NCBI GenBank assembly: GCA_030248295.1
Contig: JASANH010000850.1
Span: forward strand, 1,240,001-1,304,000
Source of the DNA: Mesodorylaimus sp. YZB2_4
Lineage: Eukaryota; Nematoda; Enoplea; Dorylaimida; Dorylaimidae
DNA: 64,000 bases
Reading direction: 5' to 3'
The position numbers and the translations under genes are program-made. Position 1 is the stretch's first letter. Every line of letters starts with the position of its first letter. Of the stretch, positions 25,126 to 58,800 are shown piece by piece. The notes under the pieces were generated by a model that worked only from the letters and a program-made list of their open reading frames with translations, had not been told where the DNA came from and made no database searches.

Positions 25126-25384
25126 TATGCCAGTAACCAGTAACCAGTACGATGAGAAGACTCATCAGAACGGTACCTACTCTTATGTTGCGGCTTTGAC
25201 CTGCTAAGCAAAAGTAGCCGTCCAATGCAAGGAAAGAAACGCAGTGTACACCTATAGTACCTGCTACAGATACGTGCAACATTAAAGCGGTTGCTTTTTC
25301 TTGCATTTTTGTCTCTGCGTTTTAGGCATGCTTCCTATGAGGTGTCAGTGGCGATAGATCTTGGGAGCGGCTGGATAGTTTGCA

Positions 25385-26869
25385 ATGTCGCGAACAACCA
25401 TCTTCTCAATTTATCTCGTTGTCTTCACGCTGGTTCCAACCGCTTGGTCTGCGAATGGCGTTGATCGAATTCGGAACTACACGCTATGGCATCCGTGCGA
25501 AATCGTGCTTGTAGTCGATGATTCGAGTAGTGTCACCGACCCTCAGTTCGCTCAAATGATCAATGTGATTCACCGACTTCCAGATTTCTTCGGCTTAGGC
25601 TCAAACTATTCGCGCGTTGCTGTTGTCACATTTTCCGACTACCCATTCATCGCCCTAAATCTGACATCTGATGAAAAGGCTGTTCGGGCATTAAATCCTC
25701 CGCGCGATAGCGGCCAGCGATTCACAAACACATTTTTGGCGTTGGAGGCGACTCGAATCCAAGTATTCGATAATGCGCGGCCCAAAGCAACGAAGCTGGT
25801 TATTTTGATCACCGATGGTTTGCCTCAAGTTGATATGTTCGGCCATATATTTTTTACTGAAACTGAGAAAGAAGCCGCTGAATTACGGAAAATGGGCAGT
25901 CAAGTTTACGTCGCTTATGTTGGAACTGACTATGAAAAGGACCCCCGAGTGCGAAATCATACCCTGATCGTCGCCGGAGATCCGTCTCGAGTGTTCCCGA
26001 TCACAGATTTCGACAAGTTGGCAGCCGAGATCCTTCACCAGGTGCAAACGGATATTCGGTGTAGGTTCGAGGAAACGTGTCGTTTCAGCGAGAATCAAAC
26101 ATGCGTCGCGGAATGGTGGCGGCCAGAGGCTGGCAACCTGAACTGTGTTAATCTTCGACCAAATTCATCGTTCACCCGTGTATGTGACACTCGGGACTGT
26201 CAAGAAGCGTGTGACAGATGGAACTGGAGCAAGCCAACATGTGAACCTCAGAATGCTGGAAGGAGTGTCGTGGTCACTCGGGATGGGCCGACTCCACCGC
26301 CGACAGAGCACGGGCCAATCTATGAATACTGCGCGCGAGAGAAGAGGGTTATGTGCCCGGGATCAACCATGGTCTTGGATACCACTGAAGTATCGTCGAC
26401 AACGACGGAAAGGCCTGACCCAACCAGTGCTCCAACCGAGTCAACGACAAACAGCGACAAACTCGGAGATAAATCGGCACCGCCTCAATCATTCTCGGAA
26501 GGCTTGTCAGCATGGATAATTGCAGTGATCGCAATCGTCTGCGTATTGCTCCTCCTTGTCGTTATTTTTGTTTCCCTATGTTTCATTCAAAAGAAGAAAC
26601 GAGCTGCCGCTATTATAGCCAAAAAGGAAGCGGAATCTAAGCTGTCTTCAATGAAAGCAAAGCAGGCGGTTGCGAAAAAACCTTCTCAAAAGTCATTGAA
26701 GCCTCTGGTGGCGGATTCGGCGGGTGTGCTCTATGGGTATGAAAAAGCCAAGGCCGCGGATCGGAGTGTCGGTGTCAGCCTGCGCGGCGATATCATGAAA
26801 TCGACTGCTATTGGCGACAAGACAAATCCAAAACCGATCTTCTCAATCAAACTCAGCAAAATACATTGA
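25385..26869 (+). CDS. von Willebrand A-domain type I membrane protein
   Basis: A single exon encodes 494 residues. The signal peptide is MSRTTIFSIYLVVFTLV. The VWA domain spans about residues 38-222. A complete MIDAS is visible: DDSSS (D45, S47, S49), a Thr in RFTNTF (T114 or T116) and ITDG (D144), so divalent-cation-dependent ligand binding is expected. A Cys-rich segment (about 226-325) and a Ser/Thr stalk follow, then a membrane segment (376-401) and a basic cytoplasmic tail of about 90 residues. At least six N-glycosylation sequons lie outside the membrane. A role as an adhesion or matrix receptor is inferred from the family. The lack of introns in a 1.5-kb gene is unusual beside its spliced neighbours. 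A poly(A) signal lies 120 nt downstream. Confidence 0.88.
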   Translation: MSRTTIFSIYLVVFTLVPTAWSANGVDRIRNYTLWHPCEIVLVVDDSSSVTDPQFAQMINVIHRLPDFFGLGSNYSRVAVVTFSDYPFIALNLTSDEKAVRALNPPRDSGQRFTNTFLALEATRIQVFDNARPKATKLVILITDGLPQVDMFGHIFFTETEKEAAELRKMGSQVYVAYVGTDYEKDPRVRNHTLIVAGDPSRVFPITDFDKLAAEILHQVQTDIRCRFEETCRFSENQTCVAEWWRPEAGNLNCVNLRPNSSFTRVCDTRDCQEACDRWNWSKPTCEPQNAGRSVVVTRDGPTPPPTEHGPIYEYCAREKRVMCPGSTMVLDTTEVSSTTTERPDPTSAPTESTTNSDKLGDKSAPPQSFSEGLSAWIIAVIAIVCVLLLLVVIFVSLCFIQKKKRAAAIIAKKEAESKLSSMKAKQAVAKKPSQKSLKPLVADSAGVLYGYEKAKAADRSVGVSLRGDIMKSTAIGDKTNPKPIFSIKLSKIH

Positions 26870-30863: not shown

Positions 30864-30920
30864 ACTGGCTGAACGCGCATTGAAGTATCAGTCGCCTCTT
30901 GGGCTGGAAAAATTCAAATA

Positions 30921-31941
30921 ATGACTCCAACTGACTTCGCCGCGTCGTCAGCCATCGGCCTAAGCGTCTTAGCTATGCTTACTTGCATCGTCACCATTCC
31001 TATCGTGTTCCAGAAGGGTGCCACTATCCAAAATGAGCTCTACGATGACATGTCCGAATTCAAGACGATCACGGACGATGCCTGGACGAACGTGATGGCT
31101 ATGCGAGCTGTGCCATCAGGCTTGCGAAAAGGTCGTCAAGCCAATGACTTTGGTCATTGCCACTGCTACGATGGTAAAGAGTGAGAAGCAGACTACGAAG
31201 GAGTCAAATAAGGAGGGTCTTATTTCAGAAAACCCTTGTCCACCTGGACCGCCAGGCCCGCCAGGCGAGCCGGGCGCAAATGGAGAACATGGACCAGATG
31301 GAAAGAAGGGAGAGACTGGGCCGCCAGGCTCCGTCCCACCGTGGTACCACATTCCGACCGCTGGTCCTTGCCAGAAATGCCCACCAGGAGACAAAGGACC
31401 AACTGGCCCACCTGGAAAACCGGGAGAGCCTGTAAGCCGAGAATAAGGTGTCAGTGAAGAAATAATTGACCGTCAAGACTTGCAGGGAAAGAAAGGCCAG
31501 CCAGGAAGTAAGGCGCCCGATGGAAAGCCTGGCCCTGCTGGCCCAGCCGGCCCACCAGGACCCCCCGGCCCACCAGGTCCAGGTGGAAAACTTGGCGAGA
31601 AGGGTCCACCTGGCAGCGACGCCGAAAAAGGCGAAAAGGGGCCACCCGGGCCTAAGGGAGAAAAAGGACCGCCAGGCCCTCCTGGACCAAACGGTGACAA
31701 GGGCGCAGCTGGCAAGAACGGTCCCCCAGGGCCAGCTGGTCCTCCCGGCCCTCCAGGTCCAGGTGGCAAACCTGGAGACAAAGGTAACTAGTTTCCGCGC
31801 TGGCCTAACTAGCACTAACAGTATGCCATTGCAGGTGGCGTTGGCCCACCTGGCGAGCCTGGGGATCCTGGCCCGGATGCCCATTACTGCCCTTGCCCGC
31901 GGCGAACGGCCAAAACTGCTAAGACCCACAAGAAAGCCTAA
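30921..31941 (+). CDS. Nematode cuticle collagen
   Basis: Exons 30921-31173, 31229-31431, 31486-31783 and 31835-31941 give 286 residues. The N-terminus has the nematode cuticle collagen signal-anchor domain: the hydrophobic stretch [18 protein letters not shown], then [17 protein letters not shown]. It is followed by the RKGR subtilisin/furin-like cleavage site. A Cys pair (CHC) precedes Gly-X-Y blocks interrupted by a non-triplet segment with PCQKCPPG. The longest triplet block is exon 3. The C-terminus [10 protein letters not shown] carries the conserved Cys pair for inter-chain cross-links. The product should be a secreted trimeric collagen of the exoskeleton. It is the strongest indication that the organism is a nematode. 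TATA box and poly(A) signal are both present. Confidence 0.95.
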
Positions 31942-35569: not shown

Positions 35570-36481
35570 TCATTGCACGCGGCCAGTAGCCCAGCGAGAC
35601 AAATAACTTGCATTGCCTGGTCGACCAGCGATATAACGTATGTCCAGTCCGCTTTGAGCCTGGTCGAAACGCTGCCACAAGTCGATGTTCGCCACGGCCC
35701 TTGATTTGTTTATGCGCTTCCAATTATTCGCTTTCCACGTGTTCAACCACTTCGATCCACCATCGATCAGATAAGTACTGTCGGTGATGAGGTTGACGCC
35801 ACTGCAGCTCTGTTGCTTTGCCTGCAAAAGGTATTTCTGTAACATAGTCTCCGGAGCAGGAGGTAGCACGTCAACCAGACAGGTCAATGTTTCACTGGTC
35901 TTTGACCACTCGAGTCAATGGTCGCTGCTCTGGTGAATTTCATGCGGAGTGCGGAAGCTCCCAGTAACCTTCCCTACCACGATAGATCTCTGATTCAAAA
36001 ACAGTAGACTGAAGGTGAGTGTTCTATTGCTTAGCGAGCATGTTGAAAATGCGGTGGCGGAAATGCTGTATCCTAATTGTACCCGAGTTATTGCACTCAA
36101 TACAATGGCATTATCCTAACTCAATTACGAGAAACCAGCAACTCCCCGATTATGGGCAATTGATCGAATTGACCCATTGCCCATAATCCAAGATGGTTGG
36201 TTTAACCCACAAAGGAACTATCCAGCGACGAGTCAGGATTATATCTGAGAACTATAGTGGACGCACAATGTAGTATATACCTCTTCAAGAGCTGCTATGG
36301 CTGCCGTCAATAAAGCCCGATTATTCGTCAGACCATTATTGTCTGTCCAACACTTGCCAAGCTTAAAAACACTTCCCAACTGGCTCCAATATACACCAAT
36401 ACCACATGTGCGTCGTTGGCCTTTGCGATGATTGTTCAAGCAGGAGCCATGAACTTCAACGAAAGGATAACTTTCACACGC
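35570..36481 (-). CDS. RNase H1-like pseudoenzyme A (5' end not found)
   Basis: Two exons are clear, 36281-36481 and 35570-35821, joined in phase 0. The first holds the N-half of an RNase H1 fold (YPFVEVHGSC, GIGVYW, NNRALLTAAIAALEE). The second holds the C-half (LITDSTYLIDG, DLWQRFDQAQSGLDIRY, then GNASYLSRWA). RNase H1 cleaves RNA in RNA/DNA hybrids with four carboxylates (DEDD). Here the first Asp is His, the Glu is Leu, the second Asp is kept (TDS), and the last Asp region reads ASYLSRW. Hydrolysis is therefore not expected; hybrid or RNA binding may remain. Paralogues B, C and D follow in the same direction. An N-terminal exon upstream of 36481 is expected by analogy but not seen. Confidence 0.75.
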
Positions 36482-36796
36482 CTGAAAAACGTCTAATTCG
36501 TAAACGCTCTTATTTCCGGTGCTAAATCATTCCGAACATCCATCGAAAGGGTTATTTAAAAGAGTCTTAACTCATTCGCCTAAAATATCTACCTGACGTC
36601 CCTGGCTTCGTTACTACTGTACTGTAGCCCTACCCGATTTCGTCTTGCTTATGCTACTGTCACACATCTCTTGCATGCCTACACAGTATGTACGGTACCA
36701 TAGTTGCAAATTAAAGCCCCTAATACGCAAGGAATAAGAGGAGCAGTAATTCGAGGGGTTCATATGCACAAAATCAATCGAGCACTCAGGGATTGT

Positions 36797-39700
36797 CTAT
36801 TCGAGACCTACATAAAAGCGAGTACATAACCTAGTTATGCTGTTAAAGAAACAAAAACCCTCAGCTGCTTGTATGCCAGATATGTAACAGCTCACCCCGG
36901 GTTGGATTTCTGGTCTACCCACACAAGAATTAACAAAGCATATCTCTGGCTTGAACGAAGGAAGGATACTCGAAATCGGCGCATTATTCAATGCAGACAA
37001 GAGAGCATTGTGAGCAAGTCGACGCGCGATCGGCACGATTTTCTGGTATCCGTAATGAACGACGATCCCGACGGAAGCCTGGTCCAAACGTTGCCACAAG
37101 TCCGCATTCTCCAGGGGACCACTGGCACGGGTCCAACCGTGAGCTTTCCAGTCGTGAATATAAGTCGATGCGCCGTAGATCAAGTAATTGCTGTTACTCA
37201 GGACCATGACGGCGTGAAAACGATTCGCTTTGGCCTGCAAGAAACAAATCAGACTCGGTCCAAGGTTGAGAACCTAAGCTAGCGTTTGGTCGGCGTATCC
37301 TCGGCATGGGGCAGTCCTAATCCATACATGCCGACGGTCTGAACTTTAGCCTATAATTGCGCAATCCCCCTGACAAAATTGGTGCGCAATCCCTAAATTT
37401 TGCTGTTTTTGGTGCGCAATCCCTAAATTTTGCTGTTTTCGATGCGCAATCATTGAATTTTGTCACTTTTGGCTCGAAATCACTAAATTTCGCTGTCTTC
37501 AATACGCAATCCCTAAATTTCGCTGTTTTTGATGCGCTATCACTGAATTTTGCCATTTTTGGCTTAAAATCACTAAATTTTGCTGTTTTAGATGAGCAAG
37601 CACCATCCATAAAGGACGTCCACCAAAAAATGCGATTTTTCGGCTTACCCCCCCCCCCCCCTATCCACCTTTCATCCGTTTCGCCTGGACCCCCTAAAAA
37701 TGGACGCCCACTTGAGCACACCCCCCCCCCCCCCCCCGATCGGTTTGATTCGACTGCTGCATCAGCCAAACTGAGATAAAATTTTACGCTTTTTTTCTGA
37801 AAATGTGTCATACCTCATCCAATTTAAAACTTCACCGATTTTCCTCTAAATCCAATTTCCCTCCAAAATCAGAATTAAATCCCGCTTTAGGTGCAAGGTA
37901 GTGCTCCTGAGTTTTTGGAGTGGTTTGATGGACAGTGACAGCGAGGAAAGAAAATATAGGGCAGGCTCCTGGGAACCTTATCCATAAAATTATCTCATTT
38001 CTTGAACGGATCACCCAGATCGAGATCGGGACTCACGTCGAGGGTCGGATCAGTCAGTGCTATCCCCTGCAACATCCCTGACATCCCGATGGCCCCCTAG
38101 CGCCTGGAATCCATCGCCCTGGATGGGGAGGTCGGCCCGTGGTTGATGTTTCAGCCACAGATGTAGTCGCTCTTTCTCACATTCAGAGTACTTGCCCAGC
38201 AAACCCCCTCTCCCACCCCTGCAGGTCTTGGTTACCAAGACACCAGATTGAGCGACAAAGCCACTGGCAGCACCATTAAAATCGTTTTATCCGCCTCAGA
38301 AAAAGAGAAGCCAAAAGGGATAAAAATTGTTTAGGAAAACTGGAATATAATCGACCTGAGTCCTTGGATAGTCGTTTCATTTCATGATTCAAATATAAGT
38401 AATTTTACTCGTATCTCTAGGGTTAATACTATGATAATTGCGATAATTTTCCGAGATAACCCGCCGATTTTGTGAAGTGGACGTCCACTTGGCGGCAGCC
38501 TACCCCCTCCCCCATCCACTTCCGTCCACTTTCCGCTCACCCCCACCCTCCCCCCTAGGGTGGACGTCCTTTATGGATGGCTCCCAATCTCTGAACTTTG
38601 CCATTTTTAGCTCGAAATGACTAAATTTCGCTGTTTTTGATGCGCAATCACCGAATTTTGCCATTTTTGGCTCTAAATCACAAAATTTCGATGTCTTCGA
38701 TGCGCAGACACCTAAGTTCGTAATTTCTTGGTGAACCTGTGCGGTTCATTTTTACTACAGTCATTACGGAAGCACGTGATTACCACGCGATACCAGTACA
38801 CGGTACCAATTGCGCAGCGGAGGCGAAAACACCTTCAACGAATGATACCTAATGCGCACCAGAGCAGGCAAAAGCTGGAATAGACTGCGCAAAATTTGCT
38901 TATGCGCGCAGAATGAAGGTGAATTTTTTTAAAAAATTTCCCCCCCCCCGCCCCCCCACCCCCCCCCCTTTTTTCAAAAATTTTAAAAAATTTAAAAAAC
39001 ACCCTAAAAAAAAAAAAGGCTATTAAAGGGGGGCGCCATATTGCTAATATCAAAAACGAGTCAGAAGAGCCGAAAAGCTTAATCGACACAAAAATAATTA
39101 AGCAAATAAAAAGCACTGTGTTATGGCATAGGCAGGCATGATCTAATCTGATTGTGATGCAGTGGTAACAACCAGGCATGCTTTATCTGGATGACTAATC
39201 AAGTTTGATCCTGTCTCCTTGAACACCAATTGCGCCGCACACGTGAGGGGTGTGTCCTCGTACAGTATGCTTGTTCCGTTTCTCTCAAGCATACCCATGG
39301 CCTTCCTAGCTTTCGTCGTTGGGATTCTGCTTCATGGAGCCAGCAAGTCATATCGAGTCTAGGATCACTTCGCTTCGCTGTTCGCGCGCGTGACATCGGG
39401 TCAGCTACTCTGAATCAATATAAGGTCAAATCAAAGTTCTTGCAGGCAGCTGTCATTGAGCTCACTTGCAAAACAACGTGCCGCAGTTCTAATTTTAAAA
39501 ATACTGCACTGATATGTACAGATATGGATTATGGTAATACCTAATACGCTAATCCAAATGTAGATTCAGTTTGGCTAAGGAAGGCCCAAAGGAATTAGCG
39601 AATGTTAGACCACTGACAGCCGAACACATATTCTCTTTCTGTTCCTCTCCCACATGCCTACACAGTCCGAAGGAAAGACACCGCTGTGCTGCTCGACTCG

Positions 39701-40162
39701 ACGAATAATACCCATTCTGACCTCACTTACAGTCATGATTTAGTGATCCTAAGGTACAGGCACCGTCAGAAGAAAGAACGAAGACATATTAAGATGGCCC
39801 ATCCGATTTCCGCTAACGAGGGACCTTCCTAGGCGACATTCGCAATTTGAGTCGCCCTTTTCAATAATGAAGCCCATACAATGTGAGGGTTGGGGTAAGT
39901 ATTCAAAAAACCTTTTTTAATAAACTTGTCAACGGAGCTGAGGGCTAGGGCATTAGGGCTGTACAATAGGCCATACCTGTTCAAGAGCAACGATTGTAGC
40001 TTCCAATAAAGCCCGTCTGTGCGTTGGACGACCATTCGACAGAAGTCTGCTGGCCACACTCTCATTTCCCTGTGGCCAATATACACCGAATCCAGCCAAA
40101 ACCAGCTTGCCGCGTCCCATGCATGATCCAAAGACTTCAACCCTCGGAAGATGATCTTTATT
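36797..40162 (-). CDS. RNase H1-like pseudoenzyme B (split by a large intron)
   Basis: Exon 39977-40162 gives the N-half (RVEVFGSC, GFGVYWPQGNE, RRALLEATIVALEQ). Exon 36797-37234 gives the C-half (VLSNSNYLIYG, DLWQRLDQASVGIVVHY, ARRLAHNA). Both are bounded by good splice sites in phase 0, at the same positions as in the paralogues. The intron between is about 2.7 kb and holds a minisatellite and an inserted 978-bp element. The four catalytic positions read Phe, Leu, Asn and a non-acidic residue. The C-terminus extends about 60 residues beyond the paralogues. Pairing these two exons into one gene is an inference from order and phase. If wrong, they are remnants of two genes. Confidence 0.62.
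37376..37602. repeat. 30-bp minisatellite, block 1
   Basis: About seven to eight units of roughly 30 bp, each near GCGCAATCCCTAAATTTTGC plus TGTTTTTGGT, with scattered changes. Because the unit is a multiple of three, long frames stay open on both strands, but these are not genes. Confidence 0.85.
37603..38580. mobile_element. 978-bp element with 22-bp perfect inverted repeats
   Basis: The ends are CCATCCATAAAGGACGTCCA(CC) at 37603-37624 and its exact inverse at 38559-38580. C-rich tracts and further GTGGACGTCCAC-like motifs lie just inside. The element interrupts the 30-bp minisatellite, which resumes on the other side. No transposase and no clear target duplication are seen. Confidence 0.82.
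38581..38712. repeat. 30-bp minisatellite, block 2
   Basis: About four more units of the same repeat (GATGCGCAATCACCGAATTT, GCCATTTTTGGC), separated from block 1 only by the inserted element. Confidence 0.8.
38925..39020. repeat. Low-complexity A/T and poly-C tract
   Basis: Runs of T, A and C, including a poly-C segment at 38941-38969, inside the large intron of RNase H1-like gene B. Confidence 0.8.
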
Positions 40163-40506
40163 CTAAAATCATAAAAGCTGAAAAAGGTTCAAGCACCCGA
40201 CACTTTACCAACTCACTTGAGTATTTGAAGAATTCATGTTACTGCCAAAGCGAGAAATATCTCCACACTTATACGAAAAAGGAAACGGGCCGTCCCGAGC
40301 CTGGCGAACGACTTGCGAACTGATAGTCTTGAGAAAAAACCGTCGTTGATGCAGTCAGAAGTAGAAATGACTACGCCAGCAGGTGACCCACCACCAGATG
40401 CACACTGACGATGAATCCAGCGGTGTTGATCACAATGCGGGCTAGACGGGGTCACGAGCGTGAGAAGGAAATGAGCAGAACACTGATGCCGCCACTGCAC
40501 TCTCTA

Positions 40507-40611
40507 GGCGCATTTATAGTCGACAAAGTTTCTACTCCTACCCCAAGGGTAGGTGTAATGGCCATATACCTAAGCGTGTGCTATAGAAATTTTGTCGACT
40601 ATAAATGCGCC
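40507..40611. mobile_element. 105-bp palindromic MITE
   Basis: The ends GGCGCATTTATAGTCGACAA and its inverse TTGTCGACTATAAATGCGCC are perfect, and pairing continues to about 27 bp. The centre has a second small palindrome, CCTACCC-AA-GGGTAGG. It has no coding capacity and lies 5' of RNase H1-like gene B. Confidence 0.85.
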
Positions 40612-41128
40612 TTCTGAGTCTGTTGGCTGTTGCGCACCCCAGGCCTCCGAGGGCAGGTAGGACTCATGCGAGCAGGATGCAAGTGGAAAACTAAACAGTC
40701 TACACTTCGGTGGGTCATAAAGACGATAAAGGGATGCTTGTGCGCAGAAACAAGACTCGCGCTGCACCGAAAAATGGCTTCCCATGCAAGAACAGCAGTC
40801 AAGAACACGTGCAGTGACTGCTCGCAATGAAAATAATGTGCTTCGAGGTGACTCTTCCAAATTCGTTTATTATTTACACACCCCACACCTACAGCTCACA
40901 CAAACTCAAAATATCGACCCTGTACTCGATTCCACATACTGGCTGCAAGGCACAAATTTACAGCACTGTACATTACATGACTTCAGACTGAAAAGTTTCA
41001 AAATGAACTCAAGCTAGATACTATCGAAAAGGAAACCCGAACACTGGCCATCAAACCCACTGGTTCTAGACCTTACGAGCGACGAAAATTCATTCTTCTC
41101 CATTAGCCTTCGCCGTTTCTGAAGATAA

Positions 41129-42003
41129 TTATTCCTTGTTTCTCACGGCCTTGCGAGCCAGTCGGCGAGCATATTTTGGTCTCGGCTCCATGACATAACT
41201 GACATTCATTCCATCTTGGGCCACGTCCAATCGCTGCCACAAATCCAAGTTAGAAATGAGTTTGGAGCTGTTTTTGTTGCGTTTCCAATCGAAAGATTTC
41301 CATTTTTCCAAGTACTCCGTCGCTCCCTTGATCAAGCAGCCGCTATTGGTTCGCAGCACGATTCCATCAAAACCTTGTCGCTTGGCCTGAAAGAAGAGTG
41401 TTAGTCAAGTGACTGATTCAGACAATGAGCCATTTGCCCGAGATTAGAGAAAATAGATCCCCAACCTGCAAAGATGCCCGCCCGCTCTTAGCAACACTAT
41501 AGAGAAGTCCATAAAAAGCACTCTATAGTGAATTATACATAAGATAACAACTGTTGCCTATAGGTGGCCATCTCGTGGTGAATTCATCAACTTCACCATC
41601 TTACCTGTTCGATAGCAGTAATAGCAGCGTCTATATAAACGCGATTGCACGTCTGATCGCCGTGATCACCCGTCAACAGTTTGCTGAGATTATTCGACGG
41701 ATTACTGGGACCCCAGTACACGCCGACACCACCGCTCTCTTTGCCCCGATAATAAGCGCACAAGCCGTGAATTTCCACAACAGGATATCGGTCGTTCTAA
41801 GATGAAGCCAGGCTGGGATTTGGTGGGAGGGTCATCAAAACTCCATCGACTCTTACCTCGATATTGGGTGTTATAGGCTTTGAATAGTGTGGCCTGTTCT
41901 TTCCCTTATTCATGTGAGCCAATCGATTGTGCAATGATTTCACTGCTTTCGCCACAGAGTCGTTCGAACTAGATTTACCCTTGCCTTGCTTTCCAAACGC
42001 TTT
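41129..42003 (-). CDS. RNase H1-like pseudoenzyme C
   Basis: Exons 41857-42003, 41605-41796 and 41129-41386 join in phase 0 (about 198 residues seen). A first exon upstream is expected. The N-terminal exon is basic (GKQGKGKSSSND, NKGKNRPHYSK) and could act as a nucleic-acid-binding linker. The fold follows: YPVVEIHGLC, GGVGVYWGPSNP, CNRVYIDAAITAIEQ, LRTNSGCLIKG, DLWQRLDVAQDGMNVSY, ARRLARKA. The catalytic carboxylates are His, Tyr, Asn and Arg at the four DEDD positions. Structural residues and the GVYWGP motif typical of animal RNASEH1 are kept, which indicates selection on the fold without catalysis. The exon boundary between the halves (EQ|AK) is identical in all four paralogues. Confidence 0.82.
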
Positions 42004-42009
42004 CTGAAA

Positions 42010-43590
42010 TACAGTATACTGTACTAGCAAATATTCAAATAATAGCTACAGATATTGGTTCAGATGAGTCAGAGGCGGGAATCATGTAAGGGGAACTAAA
42101 ATTTACAACCCATTTTGGAAGTAAATTCTACCAAGGGACTACTGCAATGATGCTTACTACCAAAATGAGCGTGGGCACACTTGCAGACATGAAATTTACT
42201 ATAGCATAGCCCCTTCCCTCTTCTCCATCGAAAACATGGCAGGATGTCCGTAGCGTGGGGTTATCCCAGACTACCGTAGGAACCCATGGAGGGGAAGAAT
42301 AATAAAACCAAGTGGGTCCAGGGAGGAGAAACTATTCAAAAGGAAACATGAGGCCTTCAAGGTGATGTTAAAAAATTAGAAAGCGGTCATCTTAAAATGC
42401 TTCATAGCCATCCAGAATTTTAACCCTATCCTACTCTATGCAACAATAGCCTAATCGCAAATACTTTTGCTGTTGGACTCGTAGGCCAAACATTTCCTTA
42501 TTGTTTTCTTGGAAGGTGCAAAGTGGCAGAGCCCGCCGAAAATGCTTGTCGGAGGTTTGTGGACGAATAAGCAACCCCTTTCTGGTAAAATTTGCTGCAG
42601 CTTACCCTGTAGGACACGAACAAATCTTCATCATCCTTTCCCATTTCGCGGTGACTGCACATGTCGAACACGTATATGTAGTACACGAAATAAATAAGTG
42701 AGAAAATATGCGCTGGGAATTCTGAAGTGAGAAAGTCAAAGGGAAGAAAAATGAAAAGAAAAGGAAACCAAAACAAATGCACCCGAGCAAAATGCACACG
42801 TGGCTGTGATCTGGGAGATTCGACTGGACCAAACCAGGGGATAAACAGCCTAAAACGCGCCAATTTCAAATGTTTTCTGGGGCGCGCCTGTCCGATTAGG
42901 ATGATGGCGGATCGTCCCGAGCATTCTTATCTTGTAGCTGTAATTCGGACCCATGTTGTACCCGGGAGCAGGAGAATCAAGATAAAGTTCGAGTAAATCC
43001 ATAGTTCATGTTCATGTTTTACGACATCTACAAATGCGGGTATGTGCACTCGACCGTAAAGCGACATATCGTACAAAATGATTTACCCCCCCCCCCCCCT
43101 GAGTCGAATACGTGCAGAATAGCAAAGGTGCAAGACCAGGACTGGATCAAATCGCAAGCAAGCCATGACAGTGAATCTGGAAGTTCTATGGGCACTGGCA
43201 CGCCAAGTCAGCGTACTTTGGGTCCCAGCGACAGTACTACGCCCTTAGTGGCTTCCGTGTCTATTGCAGTCGGTCATTAAATACTTGGAACTCTTTGACA
43301 GCCTTTTTTAGAATTCGCACCAATAACTCCTTCCTTTCCTTTCCAACTTTTACGTGAAATAGGGAAAACATATTACGCCATGTATTTCCCTCAAGAAGAC
43401 TTAGCTGACATAATACTATTCCAACTCGCGAGCTACCGAGAAATCTTGTAAATTTTTCAAAAACGAAGATCAATAATAATGCCCTTTGGCGCAACGAAAT
43501 GCGAATCTAAGTTTACCATTCGAAAAATATTTTTTAACCTTTTCTCACCTTTCAAGAATTATCTCATATCACGTAGCTTCCTCACACTCT
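42010..43590. other. Between RNase H1-like genes C and D
   Basis: It probably contains the unseen first exon and promoter of gene C. No other coding segment is recognised. A dispersed-repeat copy lies at 43004-43085, and a poly-C run follows at about 43085-43100. Confidence 0.4.
43004..43085 (+). repeat. Dispersed repeat, copy d
   Basis: GTTCATGTTCATGTTTTACG, ACATCTACAAATGCG, GTGCACTCGACCGTAAAG. More diverged than copy c but the same order. Confidence 0.7.
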
Positions 43591-43593
43591 TTC

Positions 43594-45610
43594 TTACTGA
43601 ACATTCCCTTCGGCGGCCTTCCGAGCCAACTGACATGCGTTTTTTGGCTTCGAATCCTTGATGTAATGGACGACCATCCTGTCTTGCGCAAGGTTTAATT
43701 GTTGCCACAAATCAACGTTCAACACAGATTTGGAGCTATTCTTCTTGCGTTTCCAATTGAACGATTTCCATTGGTTCATGTATTTCGTAGCGCCATCGAT
43801 CAGGTACTCGCTATTGGTACGTAAAGCGATGCCAGTGTACCCTTGCTGCTTGGCCTGAAAGCAAGGAAAGTTGAGAGGTCACGTGACATTGATCAGATTT
43901 CTTATATAAGGGTATACCAGCTAAATGGAGTCAGAAGTATGGTGTGGATGTGTGCCGTGCTGATGACATCTCGCAGGACAGAAAGGGGTGTCGGTCAGGA
44001 TCATCAGAGAGGGCATTACAACGATAAATTTGAGGAAACAACCCGTTCGGGCAGGGCTATTTGCACTCACATGAGGGTAACCAAACGTCAAGCCATCGGG
44101 TTGATATTCGTCAGCCATGGGAGATCAACAATTCTCTTCTACTCGAAATAACCCATCAGGCACGAGGTTTACTCAAGTTACCCCCCGAATCGTGTAAGTC
44201 TCTATAAGCTGCTGACAATACACGATCCCAGTCTTGTTATTATTCAGGAGCTCCAAGGCAGTCCCCCAACAGCAACTACCGAAACTAGCCACTCACTGAT
44301 ACGAGCTGTGCATCATACACTACAAGAAGGGTGGCACGGCAGGAACTTTCCCACGATCCTGGCTATGCCGTAGCATTTGTTCGGGATCCCGGTCCCGATC
44401 CCGATCCCGGTCGGGATTGCCTCTCCCGAACCCGATCCCGATAAAAAGTGTTCGGGATTGGGGACTGAATATTGTGGTGATAGAATGTTTTTATTGCAAC
44501 AGGGAATGGGGCTGGTGTATGGGAAACGAGCTGTAGGGGTGATAATGGCATGATCGGATGAAACTACTCCCATAAAATGCACAAGTCCTGCTTTTTCTGA
44601 TGTACGATTTGCGCCCAGTTGGATACAGTAACAGCCCGCATTCGCCATCATTAGATGGTGGGCCTGCTGCAGAAGCTGGCGACATTCTGCTTGACACTGA
44701 CTCAGATGGTCATGGCCATCAAAATATTCAGAAGGGGAAATATAGAGACCTTGGCGGATGATTGAATTGATAGAGGAGAAGGAGGGGATTTGTTTGCTAA
44801 TTTGTAACTGATTCTTCGCTTGCCTGATTTTGAATGCAATGATAAATACTGCACTAAAAATTATCCAAGGAAAGGGAATCTGTGGCTTTTAATTTGCTGG
44901 CTACTCAGGGTGGGTTGTAGGTCATCTATAGCCAATAAAAAGCGCTCTCTTCGCAAAATCCCGATCCCGATCCCGGTCGGGATTGAGCGAGTCCCGATCG
45001 CGATCCCGAAAATAATGATCCCGAACGAACGCTACTATGCCGGAGAGATCTATCCCTCCTACCTGACGGATAGCAATAATGGCCGCTTCCAAATAGACGC
45101 GATTACACGTCTGGATTCCATACTGTTCCACCAGCTGCTTGCACACGTTATACGGGCTGTCAGTACCCCAATAAATACCGATACCGCCAATGCGTTCTTT
45201 CTCTTTGCTGTCGTTATTCAAGCACGAGCCATGAATTTCCACTATCGGATACCGGCCTTCCTAAAAACAAACCTAAAACATTCCTGATACAAAAAAGCCC
45301 AACAAGCTCTCTTACCCATAACTTCAAGTCACCGGTAGTCTCGCCCTTGAAATCACCTTGACCCTTCTCATTCTTGCCGACCTCCGAGGAGAAGCTCAAC
45401 GACTGCAACGCTTTCAACAAGGAGCCGCACGAAGCTGGTTTGCCTTTGCACTGACTTGCGTCTGCCTTCGCCTGTTTCTGAAAAGTCACAGAAAAAATCA
45501 AATAGCAATTAGAAGGCAAGAAAGTGATAAGGAAAATTCCTGCCCCCCTCTTTCCGTGGTAAGTCCGGCATATAGGCACTTACGTTTTCAACGGGGGTAT
45601 AAGCATACAT
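43594..45610 (-). CDS. RNase H1-like pseudoenzyme D
   Basis: Exons 45584-45610, 45316-45477, 45063-45260 and 43594-43854, all phase 0, give 215 residues. The short first exon (MYAYTPVEN, good GTAAGT donor) makes this the only paralogue with a plausible complete model. The second exon is basic and polar. The fold runs YPIVEIHGSC, GGIGIYWGTDSP, CNRVYLEAAIIAIRQ, LRTNSEYLIDG, DLWQQLNLAQDRMVVHY, ACQLARKA. At the four catalytic positions it has His, Tyr, Asn and Gln. No hybrid-binding domain of the usual animal N-terminal type is seen. A hAT-type element sits in the last intron only 20 nt from an exon edge. Confidence 0.83.
44371..45034. mobile_element. Non-autonomous hAT-type element, 664 bp
   Basis: Terminal repeats TAGCATTTGTTCGGGAT and (inverse) TAGCGTTCGTTCGGGAT are bounded by an exact 8-bp duplication CTATGCCG (44363-44370 and 45035-45042). 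Just inside both ends are tandem GATCCCG-type repeats in opposite orientation. There is no transposase frame. The 8-bp duplication is the hAT superfamily hallmark. Confidence 0.9.
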
Positions 45611-46835
45611 ACTGTACAGTATAAGTCAGTAGCGTTACCAAAAATTTTCTGACCTGCAAGGAGCAAAACCCAGGACTGTCGGGACCTTACGGTGTCAACG
45701 TGACAATATCCATGCACGGGCACAGGGAAAGGGGAGGGGCAGCAGGAGGGGGCTTAGTCAGCTAAAAAGTACATACTCAAGAGTCTCCCTGCGCGTGTTT
45801 ACCCCCTCCCATGGGGTTTTAGGAAAAGGACCCCCTACCCCCTGAAGTCTGATAGAAAAGCATGTTCAACCCTTCCCTTAGACAATAGTTTGGAAAAACG
45901 AGTGAATTATCGCTAGAGGTCCATTATCGCATTTTCGAAAGAAACTTCTACAAATTCAGTTTTTCCCCAACAAAAAATCCCCCCCCTTGACATCCTGGTC
46001 TCGTCCATACTTGACAATATCCTTTCAATAATCTGCAGTAGATTCCAAAATATGAAGTTCAAGATAACTTTGTCATCCGTCAACTCTGTCCCGAAAACGA
46101 GGATTATGGCACACATAAGTCAGATTACATGACAAAATGCCGGCAAGGCAAGGTCGACCCTACAATAAGTCGCCAGCCAATCAGGCAGCCGTGCAAACAA
46201 ACATCGGTAAGATGGGCCGAAAAAGGGCGCCTCATTAGTGAGCTTTGGCCACGAATTAACAATGGACGCGTCATGCAAGTGCTGTACAGCCAAGGCCGGA
46301 TAGGGAGGGAGGCGAGTCAAAACTGGCGATGAGGAGTCTCTACCAGTTGCAATCCATCACTGTATCAATAAAGTCGTTCTGAATCATATTCTCCACGATG
46401 CCATCAGAATGCGTGAAAAGTCAGAGGGCAACGATCATGGCGGTTATGTGTACAAGGAGAGCAGAGATGCCATCAATGGGAAGATTATCCGGAAACGCAC
46501 ATTATATTCCAAACGACAGTGCGGGCGTTCGCATTCGACAGTTCGTATGTTAAACGATGCTGTCGTTAAATCCAGGAGATCACAGCCATGCTCCAAATCC
46601 GGCAAAGGTTGGTGAAAAGCGCGTGAAAGATCGAGCTGGCCAGAAGTTTGCGCATGACCAATCGTGGTTGCGATTGGACGCGCCACAGTACAAGGACAGC
46701 TACCTGTTCCATATCGAATGTGAACCGGACGGTGCAGCGAGTGCGTCAGGAAATCAATGCTGCTCCTCCAACTCCCACGACATTGGACACGATGGAAATT
46801 CCAAATCAGTTGACCAAAACTGGTGAACAGTTTCT
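45611..46835. other. Gene-free stretch
   Basis: Upstream of RNase H1-like gene D. Several open frames near 46120-46830 overlap one another without recognisable domains. The sequence next to the foldback element may be part of a larger repeat. Confidence 0.35.
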
Positions 46836-48372
46836 GAGGCCGTATTCCAGAAGCGTTTTCCTGTGAGGTTTTCCAGTCAGCTGGGTGGTTTCCTCCAAGG
46901 TCACAGTAAAGCCTATTACAGAAACAATTCCGTTGACTGTTTTCCTGTCAGCGGGTCAAGTTTCCCAGTGAGCTTGAAGGGTTTACACAAAATGCCATTC
47001 CAGAAACTTTCCTTGGAGAAAAGTTCCTTCGAGTTTGACCACCTCGCAGGAAAAAACGTTTAGGTGGTCGAGAGCACCTAAAATCGGGTTTCCTGCGAGG
47101 TTTGTATATGGTTTAACATAGTCGTGTTGCTAAAATGGATTTCGTTGAATTCGATGAGGACATTTCAACCTCAACTCCAGCAATTTTCCTATGAATCAAT
47201 CTAAAATAATAAATAAAAAAAATTATCACTCCTATTAAAAAAAAAAAAAATATTTTTTTTTTAATTAAAAAAAAAAAATAATGCTTTGATGAAGAGTTGA
47301 GCAGCAGCTGCTTACTGCGCTTTGATTTTATGCAAGCAATAAGCCATATCAATTGCTCGATGGTGATTAGCCTAACATTTCACAGCTACTGCAGCTCTAT
47401 CGAAAATGATTACAGCTGTCTCCGAAGCATTTTGCAAAAAAGTCAGGTACATTAAAGGCATTTCCTGAAGGCGCTTATGCTCGAGAATGTGTGCAAGGTT
47501 GGGTGTGAGCAAATTTTAGTTAGGTTGGGCGGTTGAGACGTCTCGAGAAAACCCTGAGCAATATCGAAATCAAAAGAGTACCCGTCTGTCAACGTGGAAG
47601 TAGCGTACGACCATCATTGTATGAATTCACTAATACTGTATACTGTACATACATAGTTGGAGTCATCCCACAACTCGCACATTTTTCGACAGAGCTGCCT
47701 GCGGGATATCGTGGAGGTATTACCAGCGAGGGATCATTTCAGTCGACTCGGCCTATCCGCGCTGAAAATGGCTTCCAGTATGACACCATTCAAAGAGCCT
47801 GTTTGAAATGAGAGCCAACGGAAGTATAACAAGGCTCACAAGAAAAGGAAGGTGAGAATCGAGATCGCAATCGACAAGTGTAAGCGGCATTTTGGATGAC
47901 TTCATTCTGAGTCTCGTTGGGCACAAAACTGGCTGCATGGATATGGCTGGCCGCACGGTGCTTCGATTGGCACATGCCCGACTTTTTTGCAGAAAACACC
48001 ATAGATGAAGGACATCGTGATCGCCGATGACAACAAAAATGGCGACTGACTTTTATCGGGCTTAGGCGACGAGATTGACGCAGTTCCATTTCATCCCATA
48101 TCATGTGTGAGTGCCTGAACATGTAGTCACTTGGTTGAAACCGTAAAATCCACTGAGCTAATTCCTTCCAGCTCACTGGAAGTTTCCTTTGAGGTCACTG
48201 TGCTTCTGGAATAGGGTCACCTCACCGGGCGATTTTCCTTTGAGCTCACAGGAAAGTTCCGCCGAGCTCCAAGGGATTTTTCCCTGTGAGCTCGAAGAAA
48301 AGTTCCAGTGACCTTGAAGGAAAATTTTCCGTTCACCTCAAGGTTTCCTTCGAGTTTCTGGAATACGGCCTC
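46836..48372. mobile_element. Foldback element with repeat-filled arms
   Basis: The ends GAGGCCGTATTCCAGAA (46836-46852) and TTCTGGAATACGGCCTC (48356-48372) are perfect inverses. Both arms (about 250 nt each) contain degenerate, roughly 25-30 nt subrepeats built on TTTCCTNNGAG and GGTCACNG motifs, in opposite orientation. The centre includes a poly-A/T tract at 47215-47282. No transposase is recognised. Confidence 0.75.
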
Positions 48373-48652
48373 TGGAGGGACACTGGTCCAGGGGCCCAAC
48401 CAAACTCTAATATTTTCGACTCAGCGAAATCTACAAAATCTGTTTCTGCGGTCTGATGCAGTTATGGCATGCTTCTTTTTCTCGTTATACGTTACATGCG
48501 ACAAGTAGCAAATCCTACTTCGCAAAGAACGAATCTTCATAGTGAGACGAGAAAGTATTGAAGCCTTATAACTAAATGAGCTGAAAGAAATACTCTCTTC
48601 TGTCGGTAGTTGCCGAGTTATAGGCTCATATCCTGCAAAATAGAACCCAACC

Positions 48653-49127
48653 TCAAAAAAGTTTGCTAAAGCGACATTTTGACTCACACGCCATTCTGTC
48701 GTGCGACATTTCACACACGACGTTTTGACCCGACACGATTAACTTCGACTGAAATACAACCTCAGTCCCACTTCCAAACTGCAAGTTAACTGACCAATCG
48801 TCTTGATCTTCTAGGTTTCTCCTCAAACTGGCTTCCACCTACTTCCAACTACAGCTCATCTAACTTTCAATGTCTTACCATTTTCTCACTAATCTCTTTC
48901 TTGGACGGCGGGTGAACAATCCAAACTGAATGCTCGTCCGGCGGTTCATCGGGATCCATGCAGCAATCGATATCCTCGAAATGATAATAATCTTTCTGCT
49001 CCGTTTTGTAATTGTATGCAACGCAAGTGAAACCGTGACCATAGTTGGTGGCAGGCGAGTCAGAATAGTCCAAATCAAAATCGGAATCACAGCTGAAATC
49101 GAAATCTCGAGAATAGCCGTAAGCCAT
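48653..49127 (-). CDS. Small acidic two-exon protein, unrecognised
   Basis: Exons 48879-49127 and 48653-48838 join in phase 0 across a 40-nt intron (GTAAGA..TAG) to give 144 residues. The N-terminus is Asp/Ser/Tyr/Phe-rich (RDFDFSCDSDFDLDYSDS), followed by an acidic middle (FEDIDCCMDPDEPPDE) and a more regular C-terminal half with QFGSGTEVVFQSKLIVSG that could be beta-structured. No signal peptide or known family is seen. The short intron fits the smallest introns elsewhere in the window. Confidence 0.5.
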
Positions 49128-55857: not shown

Positions 55858-58800
55858 ATGAATGTCTTTGAGTTCCTATTTTGGCAATTTCTCCCAGTAA
55901 TTGCTGCATTCATGCAGGAAGCTAATGGTTCCACAGACTGGATTTCAGTCGAACCACCACCACACCCAACAATTGTAGCTATAATCGAAACTGATCAGTG
56001 GACACTCGAAACCGAAACATCGACGGAGAAGCAGACCAAGCTAAGTGTCATTGAGAACAGTATGCTTACCCTGGTCTGCTCAGCTCCATATCCTGTAATG
56101 TGGCATAAGAATACAACGACGGTGAGTCTCTGTCAAGCCATTGAGGATCCAGAATATGGAAAGCCCATGTGGTCTGTCTTTTAGTTCGAGTACCTGAAAC
56201 AAAGGCGCCTCGATAGCCCGCGGCCAGGTATGGATAACGAGTTCGAACTTGTAGCTGCCAAGCGATACGAGTCAGTTATGGTGTATCGTAACTTCTCTGT
56301 GGCTTATACTGGCGCTTACCGCTGCTCAGTCGACCCCTACCCGCTACCTCAACCAGTCAGAATCTACGATAAGGATTTTCTGTCCACGATAGTCCAACTC
56401 GCCTTGCACCCTGTTCCAAGTAAGCAGTGGTGGCTGCTGACACAGCCATTTTGGATTATCATCCAGAAAGCAGCTATAACTTGTAGATATCACCAGATCT
56501 GTCCAAATTCTACAAGAAGGCTTTGATATCATTCGGCCAAGGGCGGCGTCTCACTATCGATACTGGGATTCCCATTTGGAGATCTCCATCATCCACACCA
56601 TCCCGCCTGGGCTTGAAATTGAGTCCTTCCTGGACAGCCCATCGGACCTGTGTCTGAACAAGGACAATTCTGTTTTTCTTACTGGTGCCATGAAAATAGA
56701 AAGGAAAACCCTATCAAGAGGTATTGGAAAAATCAGTGCTATTCTTAGCACGGGTTCATACATATGCCGAGGCGTATACAGATTCGTGTTTCGAAGCCAA
56801 ATGAATGATACCAGATCCGAACCTGATCTTGTTTCGAATGAGGTGAATTTGTTTACTGACACCATCGATCATGTCATAACGGACGCCGATGTCATCACTC
56901 GCACAGAGAGCACTATCATGCTGAACCGACTCTGGTATTATGAGATGAGAATGTACGTATCCGCACCGATCACATTGACAGAAGCGAGCCTGCTGTTGGA
57001 GGTGCGAGAGCAAGACGGAGCTCAATGCACGTCAAAGCCGATTCCAGCAAAGCAAGCCACGGCCATATGTGGAATTTACGGGTTCAGTTTGTTCGACGAT
57101 GATTACGATTTCAAAGGGGTCAGTGTGGTCGCGAGAGCATGGAATTCGTGTACTCTTAGGGTGCGTGTAAATGAATCCTCGAGCATCAGTTGGACTACTC
57201 CCAGTTTATCCAACCAATCAGTTCCTACCCTGACCTCTTCGCTTTTCATTACTGTGTTCGATGGTGGTCGGTTTGGATATTCATTCGAAGGTGCTGTAGT
57301 CAAATCTGATCCGGAGGTCGCTAGTGGAACTGGGATTGTTGTGAATTCTTTTCTGACACTGAACTGCCTTATGCCGAAGTGCCATCATTTGTGGGTCACG
57401 TGGCGGAAGGATGGCCCTTTCATTTGGCCCCCGTACTCTAGCAACATGATTGGCACTTCGATAAGTGGTCACTGGAATGCCACGATTGAAGTAACATCGA
57501 TAGACCAATGGACCATGACTTATGCTTTGAAATTCCAACCCGTTTCTCTTGAACACACCGGCCTCTACTCTTGCTTGACCATGAGTTCATCTTCAAGGAA
57601 GCAAAGAAGAATTGCGCAGTCCTACGCACAGTTCCAGGTCAATGTGGAAAAGTACAGAGCGCCTATGTTTTCAACAGACGAAACCCATGAGCTGACTCTA
57701 CTAAATGGCACTGTCAAGTTAACATGCAGACCCGATGGCTTGCCAAATCCAAAAATTTCTTGGACCTGGGAATCAAATACAATGAATCCAAAATTACCAT
57801 CTCCCGCATTTAGTGAAACCAATGAGACGATCTTTGTATTTCAACCTGGCGTTTATAACTGTAATGCCTTGAATGAATATGGTCGCAACGAAACGGCTTT
57901 TGTGGTTCTTCCTGAACCTCCGTCACCCCAACTTATTGCCGGCTCCTCCTCAACCTCAGCAAGCATTGCATTGCCACTGGCCATTGTCACGCCCCTCGTG
58001 ATGATTGCGCTTTTTGCGGCATTCTTCCTTTTTAGATTCTGCAAACGAAAAGCAGTGAATGTAAGCCTGAGACAGTGCGAAACAGGGCTGCTCATCGTCA
58101 AACCTACGTTTTAGGCGTCCTTTAAAAGGCTATCCCAAATGTTCAAGAACACTTCACGCACCCCCATCCCAATCGACGACACGGCTCCCTTGAATGATCA
58201 AGTCCAGAACTTGCAATATAATCAACAACTCGAAATCGATCGCAGCTTGTTCACTGTGAATGACAAACTACTAGGCATGTGAGAATTCGGGACCATATAC
58301 AAAGGGGAACTGAGATCACCTGAGACTGGAGACGTCCGCCAAGTGGCGATAAAGATCCCCAGAGGTACAGTAAGACACATTGTATTGTACTGTGTTGGTA
58401 CATGGTACCGTGCTCTATTCCAGACCCCTTGAATTTGCAAGCCTATCGAGCTTTGACGGACGAAGTAAAAATAATGAGCCACATTCGTCCCCACGTCAAT
58501 GTCATCTCACTTATCGGTGCGTGTACCAGAAATGTAGAGCACAGAGAATTATACGTGCTGATTGAATTTTGCGAAAATGGATCGTTAAGAGACTACTTGA
58601 TAAAACACGCAATGAAATTCGAAGGTTTCAAAGTCAATGCCGCTGGGCAATTCTTGGTACGTCTGGGTAATTTTTGTTGTGCCCTTGCTACTGTGACTTG
58701 TGTGGTGACTAGATATCGCCCCGGGGCTTGCCTGGGCAGGCGGGAGGAGCGGGGAAGTATGAATGGTGTAAGGCTCTTTGTTCCACTCATTTTCTGGCCT

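Follow-up and report, generated by a model that had tools for sequence, protein, structure and literature searches.

Four neighbouring genes for RNase H1-type proteins lie on the minus strand of a 64,000-nucleotide stretch of DNA from the nematode Mesodorylaimus sp. YZB2_4 (GenBank assembly GCA_030248295.1, contig JASANH010000850.1, positions 1240001-1304000; the contig is designated C3 and the stretch is called the window), in a genome of 145 megabases. With two further genes of the same contig they make up a family whose RNase H domains retain almost none of the residues of the active site. The reading that we prefer, and to which we give a probability of about 0.5, is that these genes are nuclease-dead duplicates of the cellular RNase H1 that would have been kept by selection as nucleic-acid-binding proteins.

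Catalytic residues of the RNase H domains

The RNase H1 domains of the window (n=4) belong to genes named, from low to high coordinate, g4 (35570-36481; Pfam RNase_H, PF00075, expectation value (E) 7.9e-19), g3 (36797-40237; E 6.4e-12), g2 (41129-42662; E 2.4e-10) and g1 (43594-49127; E 9.4e-16). A preliminary description, made from the letters of the window, had proposed four minus-strand genes of this type, and the profile matches (E 2.4e-10 to 7.9e-19) bear this out. When the genome was searched with the RNase_H model, at least 8 matches were obtained in seven genes (genome match counts are lower bounds throughout). Besides g1-g4, these were d5 (C3:1322552-1323944, plus strand, about 19 kilobases (kb) past the end of the window; PF00075 E 2.3e-13), d6 (C3:345816-346780, plus strand; PF00075 E 2.1e-13) and one canonical RNase H1 (C4:647918-648858, minus strand; Cauli_VI E 3.6e-20 and RNase_H E 1.6e-33). 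The canonical protein has the hybrid-binding domain and the full set of catalytic residues. Genome searches with three family proteins each recovered all seven genes, and the search with the canonical protein recovered itself, a fragment on contig C290 and all dead domains except that of g4. The C290 fragment was also matched in two of the three family-protein searches. Against the human RNase H1 chain 2qk9 in the PDB, the canonical protein gave E 2.4e-40 and the g4 domain E 6.1e-15. On sequence comparison, the six dead genes are homologous to RNase H1. An alternative phase-0 donor in g3 (CCCGGG|GTGAGC, within 36890-36901, judged good by eye) is in frame with g4, and the two may form a single gene that encodes both dead domains; the six dead domains of the family are therefore assigned to five or six genes.

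The reference set for the alignment of the six domains comprised 16 enzymes: the canonical enzyme of the same genome, two viral sequences (L059 and L061) and 13 bacterial sequences (L062-L074). The reference rows were gathered by scanning viral contigs (2 relatives) and prokaryote genomes (13 relatives) with the canonical protein, L061 being added from a scan of viral contigs with the dead-family alignment, and were called active-type on the presence of the catalytic residues. One more viral match (L060), partial and poorly aligned, was left out of all counts. Residues are numbered as in the canonical domain.

Asp10, Glu52, Asp76, His135 and Asp145 were each present in 16/16 reference enzymes. 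In the dead domains (order g1, g2, g3, g4, d5, d6) the Asp10 column read H, H, F, H, H, H (kept 0/6), the Glu52 column Y, Y, L, L, A, L (0/6), the Asp76 column N, N, N, D, N, D (2/6) and the Asp145 column C, R, R, S, R, R (0/6), while His135 was deleted in all six with the whole of its loop (0/6). Catalytic residues survived in 2/30 cells, and the carboxylate loss amounted to 4/4 in g1-g3 and 3/4 in g4. Judged on the catalytic Asp, Glu, Asp and Asp and on the loop His, none of the six domains is of the active RNase H1 type. The substitutions that the preliminary description had listed for the window domains agree with these columns at all sites except the last Asp of g1, where it was one residue off and the residue is Cys, not Gln; the deletion of the catalytic-His loop in all four window domains was absent from it. 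The question it had raised, whether a corrected alignment would restore the carboxylates, is answered in the negative by the fuller alignment of 22 sequences, which leaves them lost.

Strong conservation (at least 15/16 reference enzymes) was seen in 22 columns, of which the 17 non-catalytic ones keep 59/102 cells in the dead domains; the catalytic columns are less kept than these 17 (one-sided Mann-Whitney p = 0.010).

Probable descent from the cellular enzyme and selective constraint

A common phase-0 intron at A[IL]x[QE]|A, the splice boundary that had been described for the window genes, was found in all six dead genes, and the canonical RNase H1 gene has an intron at the identical position and phase. 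In a maximum-likelihood tree, where the canonical gene was the sole animal RNase H1 besides the six, the six dead domains came together (100/98) and the canonical gene adjoined them (94/85, not starred). After removal of the catalytic columns and their neighbours, the six-domain group was found at 85/87 and the canonical adjacency at 91/79 (not starred). The branches of g3 and d5 were long and the order inside the six-domain group was not settled by the tree; g4 and d6 were grouped (93/90, and 96/91 without the catalytic columns). Since the second Asp is present only in g4 and d6, which group, it is probable that Asp76 disappeared at a later stage or on more than one occasion. These comparisons favour an ancestor shared with the canonical RNase H1 of the genome and only one inactivation event; most simply, a duplicated cellular RNase H1 would have been inactivated once and then duplicated further.

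No stop or frame break was found in the modelled exons of the six genes, whose identity to g1 is 31-58% by exon. The ratio of non-synonymous to synonymous substitutions per site (dN/dS) was calculated by the simple method of Nei and Gojobori. A dN/dS near 1, which the preliminary description had counted as evidence against its reading, was not observed; for g1-g2 the value was 0.19 (dS 1.58, which is near saturation; dN 0.30; bootstrap 0.08-0.32). Three other dead pairs gave 0.18-0.24, with upper limits of 0.41-0.45, and among all 15 dead pairs the 13 with finite dS ranged from 0.16 to 0.49, the other 2 being undefined by saturation. Identity between the g1 and g2 domains is 57%, whereas neutral simulations at d = 1.58 (n=500) averaged 9% and did not exceed 19%. 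Simulated neutral drift at 0.5 substitutions per site left stop-free copies in 6/4000 cases for g1 and in 4/4000 for g2. These values indicate that the protein sequence of the dead domains is under constraint, and the loss of catalytic residues together with purifying selection (dS near saturation) points to pseudoenzymes.

A partial copy (L057, C290:99034-99249) resembles the middle exon of d5, from which it differs by 6 non-synonymous and 3 synonymous codon changes. Searches with the dead-family and canonical proteins gave no other family matches on C290, and this copy is probably a young broken duplicate of the d5 exon.

Retained DNA-side positions, N-terminal region and possible functions

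Among the strongly conserved non-catalytic columns, those intact in 6/6 dead domains are Gly11, Gly24, Thr47, Trp91, Asn106 and Trp110, the last of these positions being Leu in the genome's own canonical protein. The three that line the DNA-strand pocket and channel, Thr47, Asn106 and Trp91, are kept in 18/18 cells. Thr47 and Asn106 are aligned opposite a Thr and an Asn of human RNase H1, which we take to be Thr181 and Asn240 of the DNA phosphate pocket. The dead domains are basic, with a calculated charge of +5.0 to +9.0 (canonical domain, +5.0). The inactive human enzyme RNH1(D210N) binds R-loops, cannot cleave them and raises their stability, according to PMC8038378; Asn stands at the aspartate equivalent to D210 in 4/6 dead domains. 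Given the behaviour of D210N, the loss of further catalytic groups and the unchanged Thr47, Asn106 and Trp91, binding of nucleic acid without cleavage is the most likely function suggested by the kept residues, and binding of RNA/DNA hybrids is plausible. The dead domains would bind hybrid or duplex DNA without cutting it, the bound hybrid or duplex would be shielded from active-type RNase H1, and the N-terminal domain of g1, d5 and d6 would be responsible for targeting or for partner binding.

That N-terminal domain is encoded by a related exon with which g1, d5 and d6 open, acidic at its start and with many Tyr, Trp and Cys residues thereafter. Exon 1 of d5 is 51% identical to exon 1 of g1 (48% over about 58 amino acids (aa) in the search alignment, E 5.7e-12 and 5.3e-12), and exon 1 of d6 is 35% identical to it (E 0.07 genome-wide, 1.7e-6 for the window alone). 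In genome searches the N-terminal stretches matched only the g1, d5 and d6 loci, the d6 query giving d5 but not g1; a search within the window did not find the domain for g2, g3 or g4. The g1 domain had no Pfam match, the three-sequence profile gave nothing better than E 0.079 against the PDB, and comparison with the canonical hybrid-binding domain gave an hhalign probability of 0.1, that is, no detectable relation. In g1, d5 and d6 the domain occupies the place that the hybrid-binding domain has in the canonical protein. The family-protein searches also gave weak genome matches on contigs C520 (E 2.7) and C771 (E 5.6).

A more specific form of the preferred reading would have dead RNase H1 proteins evolve as a natural family in an animal lineage, with five or six such genes beside the single active-type gene found. 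Their products would be dedicated readers or protectors of RNA/DNA hybrids (R-loops), and in three of them a new N-terminal domain would replace the hybrid-binding domain; we hold this form only tentatively, with less confidence than the general one. The preliminary description had also read the genes as a dead RNase H1 family. Its reading stands as regards catalytic loss, open frames, constraint and ancestry; for the secretion that it mentioned as a possible use, no evidence was obtained in a crude Kyte-Doolittle scan of five modelled N-termini (maxima -0.53 to 1.16), in which d6 (1.16) and g3 (0.95) were the least clear.

Several observations weigh against binding proteins kept by selection, and against hybrid binding in particular. 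Asn16, Asn48 and Asn49, which we take from the roles of their human counterparts to be RNA-side contact positions, are kept in 4/6, 1/6 and 4/6 domains (9/18 cells). Tyr8, Thr9, Val132 and Asn141, all strongly conserved, are lost in 6/6, these positions lying beside Asp10, inside the deleted loop or just before Asp145. Human Arg179 belongs to the DNA phosphate pocket (PMC8713576), and Arg45, which matches it, is Arg in 2/6 dead domains and in 3/16 reference enzymes. The hybrid-binding domain (Pfam Cauli_VI) was not found in the N-termini of g1 and g2 or in d5 and d6. The dN/dS values are rough, because dS is near saturation and the method is simple, and the selection and family data come from one genome.

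The partial erosion of the RNA-side positions would fit domains that bind duplex DNA, or DNA in general, and that lost the ancestral preference for hybrids as the RNA-side contacts eroded. The 6/6 retention of each of Thr47, Asn106 and Trp91, against 9/18 for the three Asn positions, and the basic charge of the domains favour such DNA binders, which we nevertheless consider unlikely: Asn16 and Asn49 are still Asn in 4/6 domains each. Trp87, presumably the equivalent of human Trp221, is aromatic in 6/6 domains but is Tyr in four of them and Trp in two. Human Trp221 stacks on a DNA sugar (PMC8960830).

A protein-protein scaffold, or a regulatory partner of active RNase H1 or of another complex, in which the N-terminal domain would do the work and nucleic-acid binding would have been lost, is likewise a doubtful alternative. 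It would agree with a family-specific Glu at the old active site (alignment column 13, two residues before the lost first Asp), which is invariant in 6/6 dead domains where 15/16 reference enzymes have Tyr, and with the lack of a Pfam match for the N-terminal domain of g1, d5 and d6. The N-terminal exon was, however, found in only 3/6 genes in the searches made, and the invariance of Thr47, Asn106 and Trp91 would require another reason.

The same Glu bears on whether the proteins are still nucleases with a rearranged active site, formed by this Glu before the old Asp and by an acidic residue two positions after the old Glu (column 123, acidic in 5/6 dead domains). Such an enzyme is very improbable: Tyr, Leu or Ala stands in place of the old Glu, 4/6 domains have Arg at the last Asp, the His loop is deleted in all, and the 18 columns invariant across the six dead domains include one acidic column. 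Decaying pseudogenes that are open by chance are scarcely credible; they would account for the lack of an own start codon in g4 and for the partial d5 copy on C290 with its excess of non-synonymous changes (6 against 3), and the family is known from genomic sequence alone, but six genes without stop or frame break at such low identity to g1 (31-58%), the rarity of stop-free copies in the neutral simulations, dN/dS well below 1 and intact splice sites speak against decay. The RNase H fold is common in retroelements and viruses, and the tree rows contain no retroelement RNase H; still, derivation from such an element rather than from the cellular enzyme has next to no probability, in view of the intron position shared with the cellular gene, the tree placement beside it and the sole viral relative found with the dead-family profile (45 stretches of the viral contigs fitted the pattern and 1, L061, encodes a relative), which has all five catalytic residues. 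Secretion, pseudogenes, retroelement origin and a rearranged nuclease were all rated low on this evidence.

Nuclease-dead, nucleic-acid-binding duplicates of RNase H1 can be compared with three known systems. With animal RNase H1 (human RNASEH1; PDB 2qk9, 6vrd) the family shares a homologous RNase H domain; it differs in that the hybrid-binding domain is absent from the N-termini tested, the catalytic-His loop is missing, three to four of the four carboxylates are lost, and three dead genes carry a different N-terminal domain. In the engineered inactive RNase H1 (D210N), an R-loop detection tool (PMC8038378), catalysis is likewise lost with the domain kept, whereas the present family is natural and multi-gene, has lost further catalytic groups, and its binding is predicted. 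By analogy, the family would be nature's own equivalent of the laboratory D210N enzyme. The fungal Ssd1/Dis3L2 pseudonucleases of the RNase II family descend from a nuclease, act as RNA-binding proteins and lack the active site, which some of them lost following gene duplication (PMC8097288); they are an analogy in way of working only, being of a family and fold unrelated to the RNase H1 of the five or six animal genes described here.

Maintained dead enzymes, and nucleases turned into RNA-binding proteins, are already known. What appears new is a natural dead RNase H1 gene family that is homologous to RNase H1 but whose residues are not those of an active RNase H; in the open-access literature, no natural inactive RNase H1 family was found in the titles and abstract openings among the matches listed. 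The laboratory form of dead RNase H1 traps R-loops, and a natural family would let one ask whether cells protect or read hybrids purposely. It would also add RNase H1 to the nucleases converted into binding proteins, and would provide natural sequences in which catalytic residues and DNA-strand contacts diverged under selection.

Gene models and neighbouring features of the window

Homology was the basis for modelling the RNase H halves of g1-g4 and also exon 1 of g1, which resembles exon 1 of d5 and, to a lesser degree, that of d6; for the first exons of g2 and g3 the basis was an ATG and a fitting splice site only. All modelled window exons (13/13) are open and of a length divisible by three, and all introns between them (9/9) are GT-AG and of phase 0; the open frames and intact splice sites claimed earlier are thereby upheld. 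The extent first given to the four-gene cluster, 35570-45610, needs to be enlarged: the cluster is there, but exon 1 of g1 lies beyond it.

All exons are on the minus strand. In g1, exon 1 (48879-49127) contains the ATG and the N-terminal domain (83 aa) and ends at the donor ATG|GTAAGA; exon 2 (45316-45477) encodes a linker of 54 aa, with a weak match to g2 exon 2 (50% over 24 aa, E about 0.03 for the window alone); exon 3 (45063-45260) encodes the N-terminal half of the RNase H domain, with Asp to His and Glu to Tyr; and exon 4 (43594-43854) encodes the C-terminal half to the stop, with Asp to Asn, the His loop deleted and Asp to Cys. In the last intron of g1 (44385-44442), GATCCC is repeated as a 6-base unit in a short array, and a similar motif occurs again near 45000.

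For g2, the proposed exon 1 (42606-42662; 19 aa, phase-0 donor) is placed by open frame and splice site only. It is followed by a linker exon of 49 aa (exon 2, 41857-42003), by exon 3 (41605-41796; N-terminal half of the RNase H domain, Asp to His and Glu to Tyr) and by exon 4 (41129-41386; C-terminal half to the stop, Asp to Asn, His loop deleted, Asp to Arg).

The proposed exon 1 of g3 (40217-40237; 7 aa, MNSSNTQ, phase-0 donor) is likewise placed by open frame and splice site only. Exon 2 (39977-40162) encodes the N-terminal half of the RNase H domain, with Asp to Phe and Glu to Leu. The C-terminal half, with Asp to Asn, the His loop deleted and Asp to Arg, is encoded by exon 3 (36797-37234), which continues to the stop in a C-terminal tail that is absent from the other genes. 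The long intron of g3 (39976-37235) contains tandem arrays of a 30-base unit at 37379-37603 and 38585-38720, for which periods of 60 or 90 are alternatives.

In g4, the exon for the N-terminal half (36281-36481; Asp to His, Glu to Leu) starts at a phase-0 acceptor, and no in-frame ATG was found before or within this first exon; the exon for the C-terminal half (35570-35821) runs to the stop, with the second Asp kept, the His loop deleted and the last Asp changed to Ser.

An exact SL1 leader was not found in a genome-wide search. A cuticle collagen gene (30873-31791, plus strand), in which a Col_cuticle_N match (E 3.5e-16) precedes Gly-Pro-Pro repeats, is situated outside the cluster, about 4 kb from its low-coordinate end; the cuticle-collagen N-terminal domain has at least 133 matches in the genome, one of them in the window, in a search whose 14 control genomes were prokaryotic. 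A long open frame at 25379-26866 (plus strand) contains a von Willebrand factor A domain (E 1.3e-21). At 56480-58869 (plus strand), immunoglobulin domains (E 3.9e-10) are followed by a partial protein kinase domain (E 2.5e-9), and this is possibly a receptor kinase gene.

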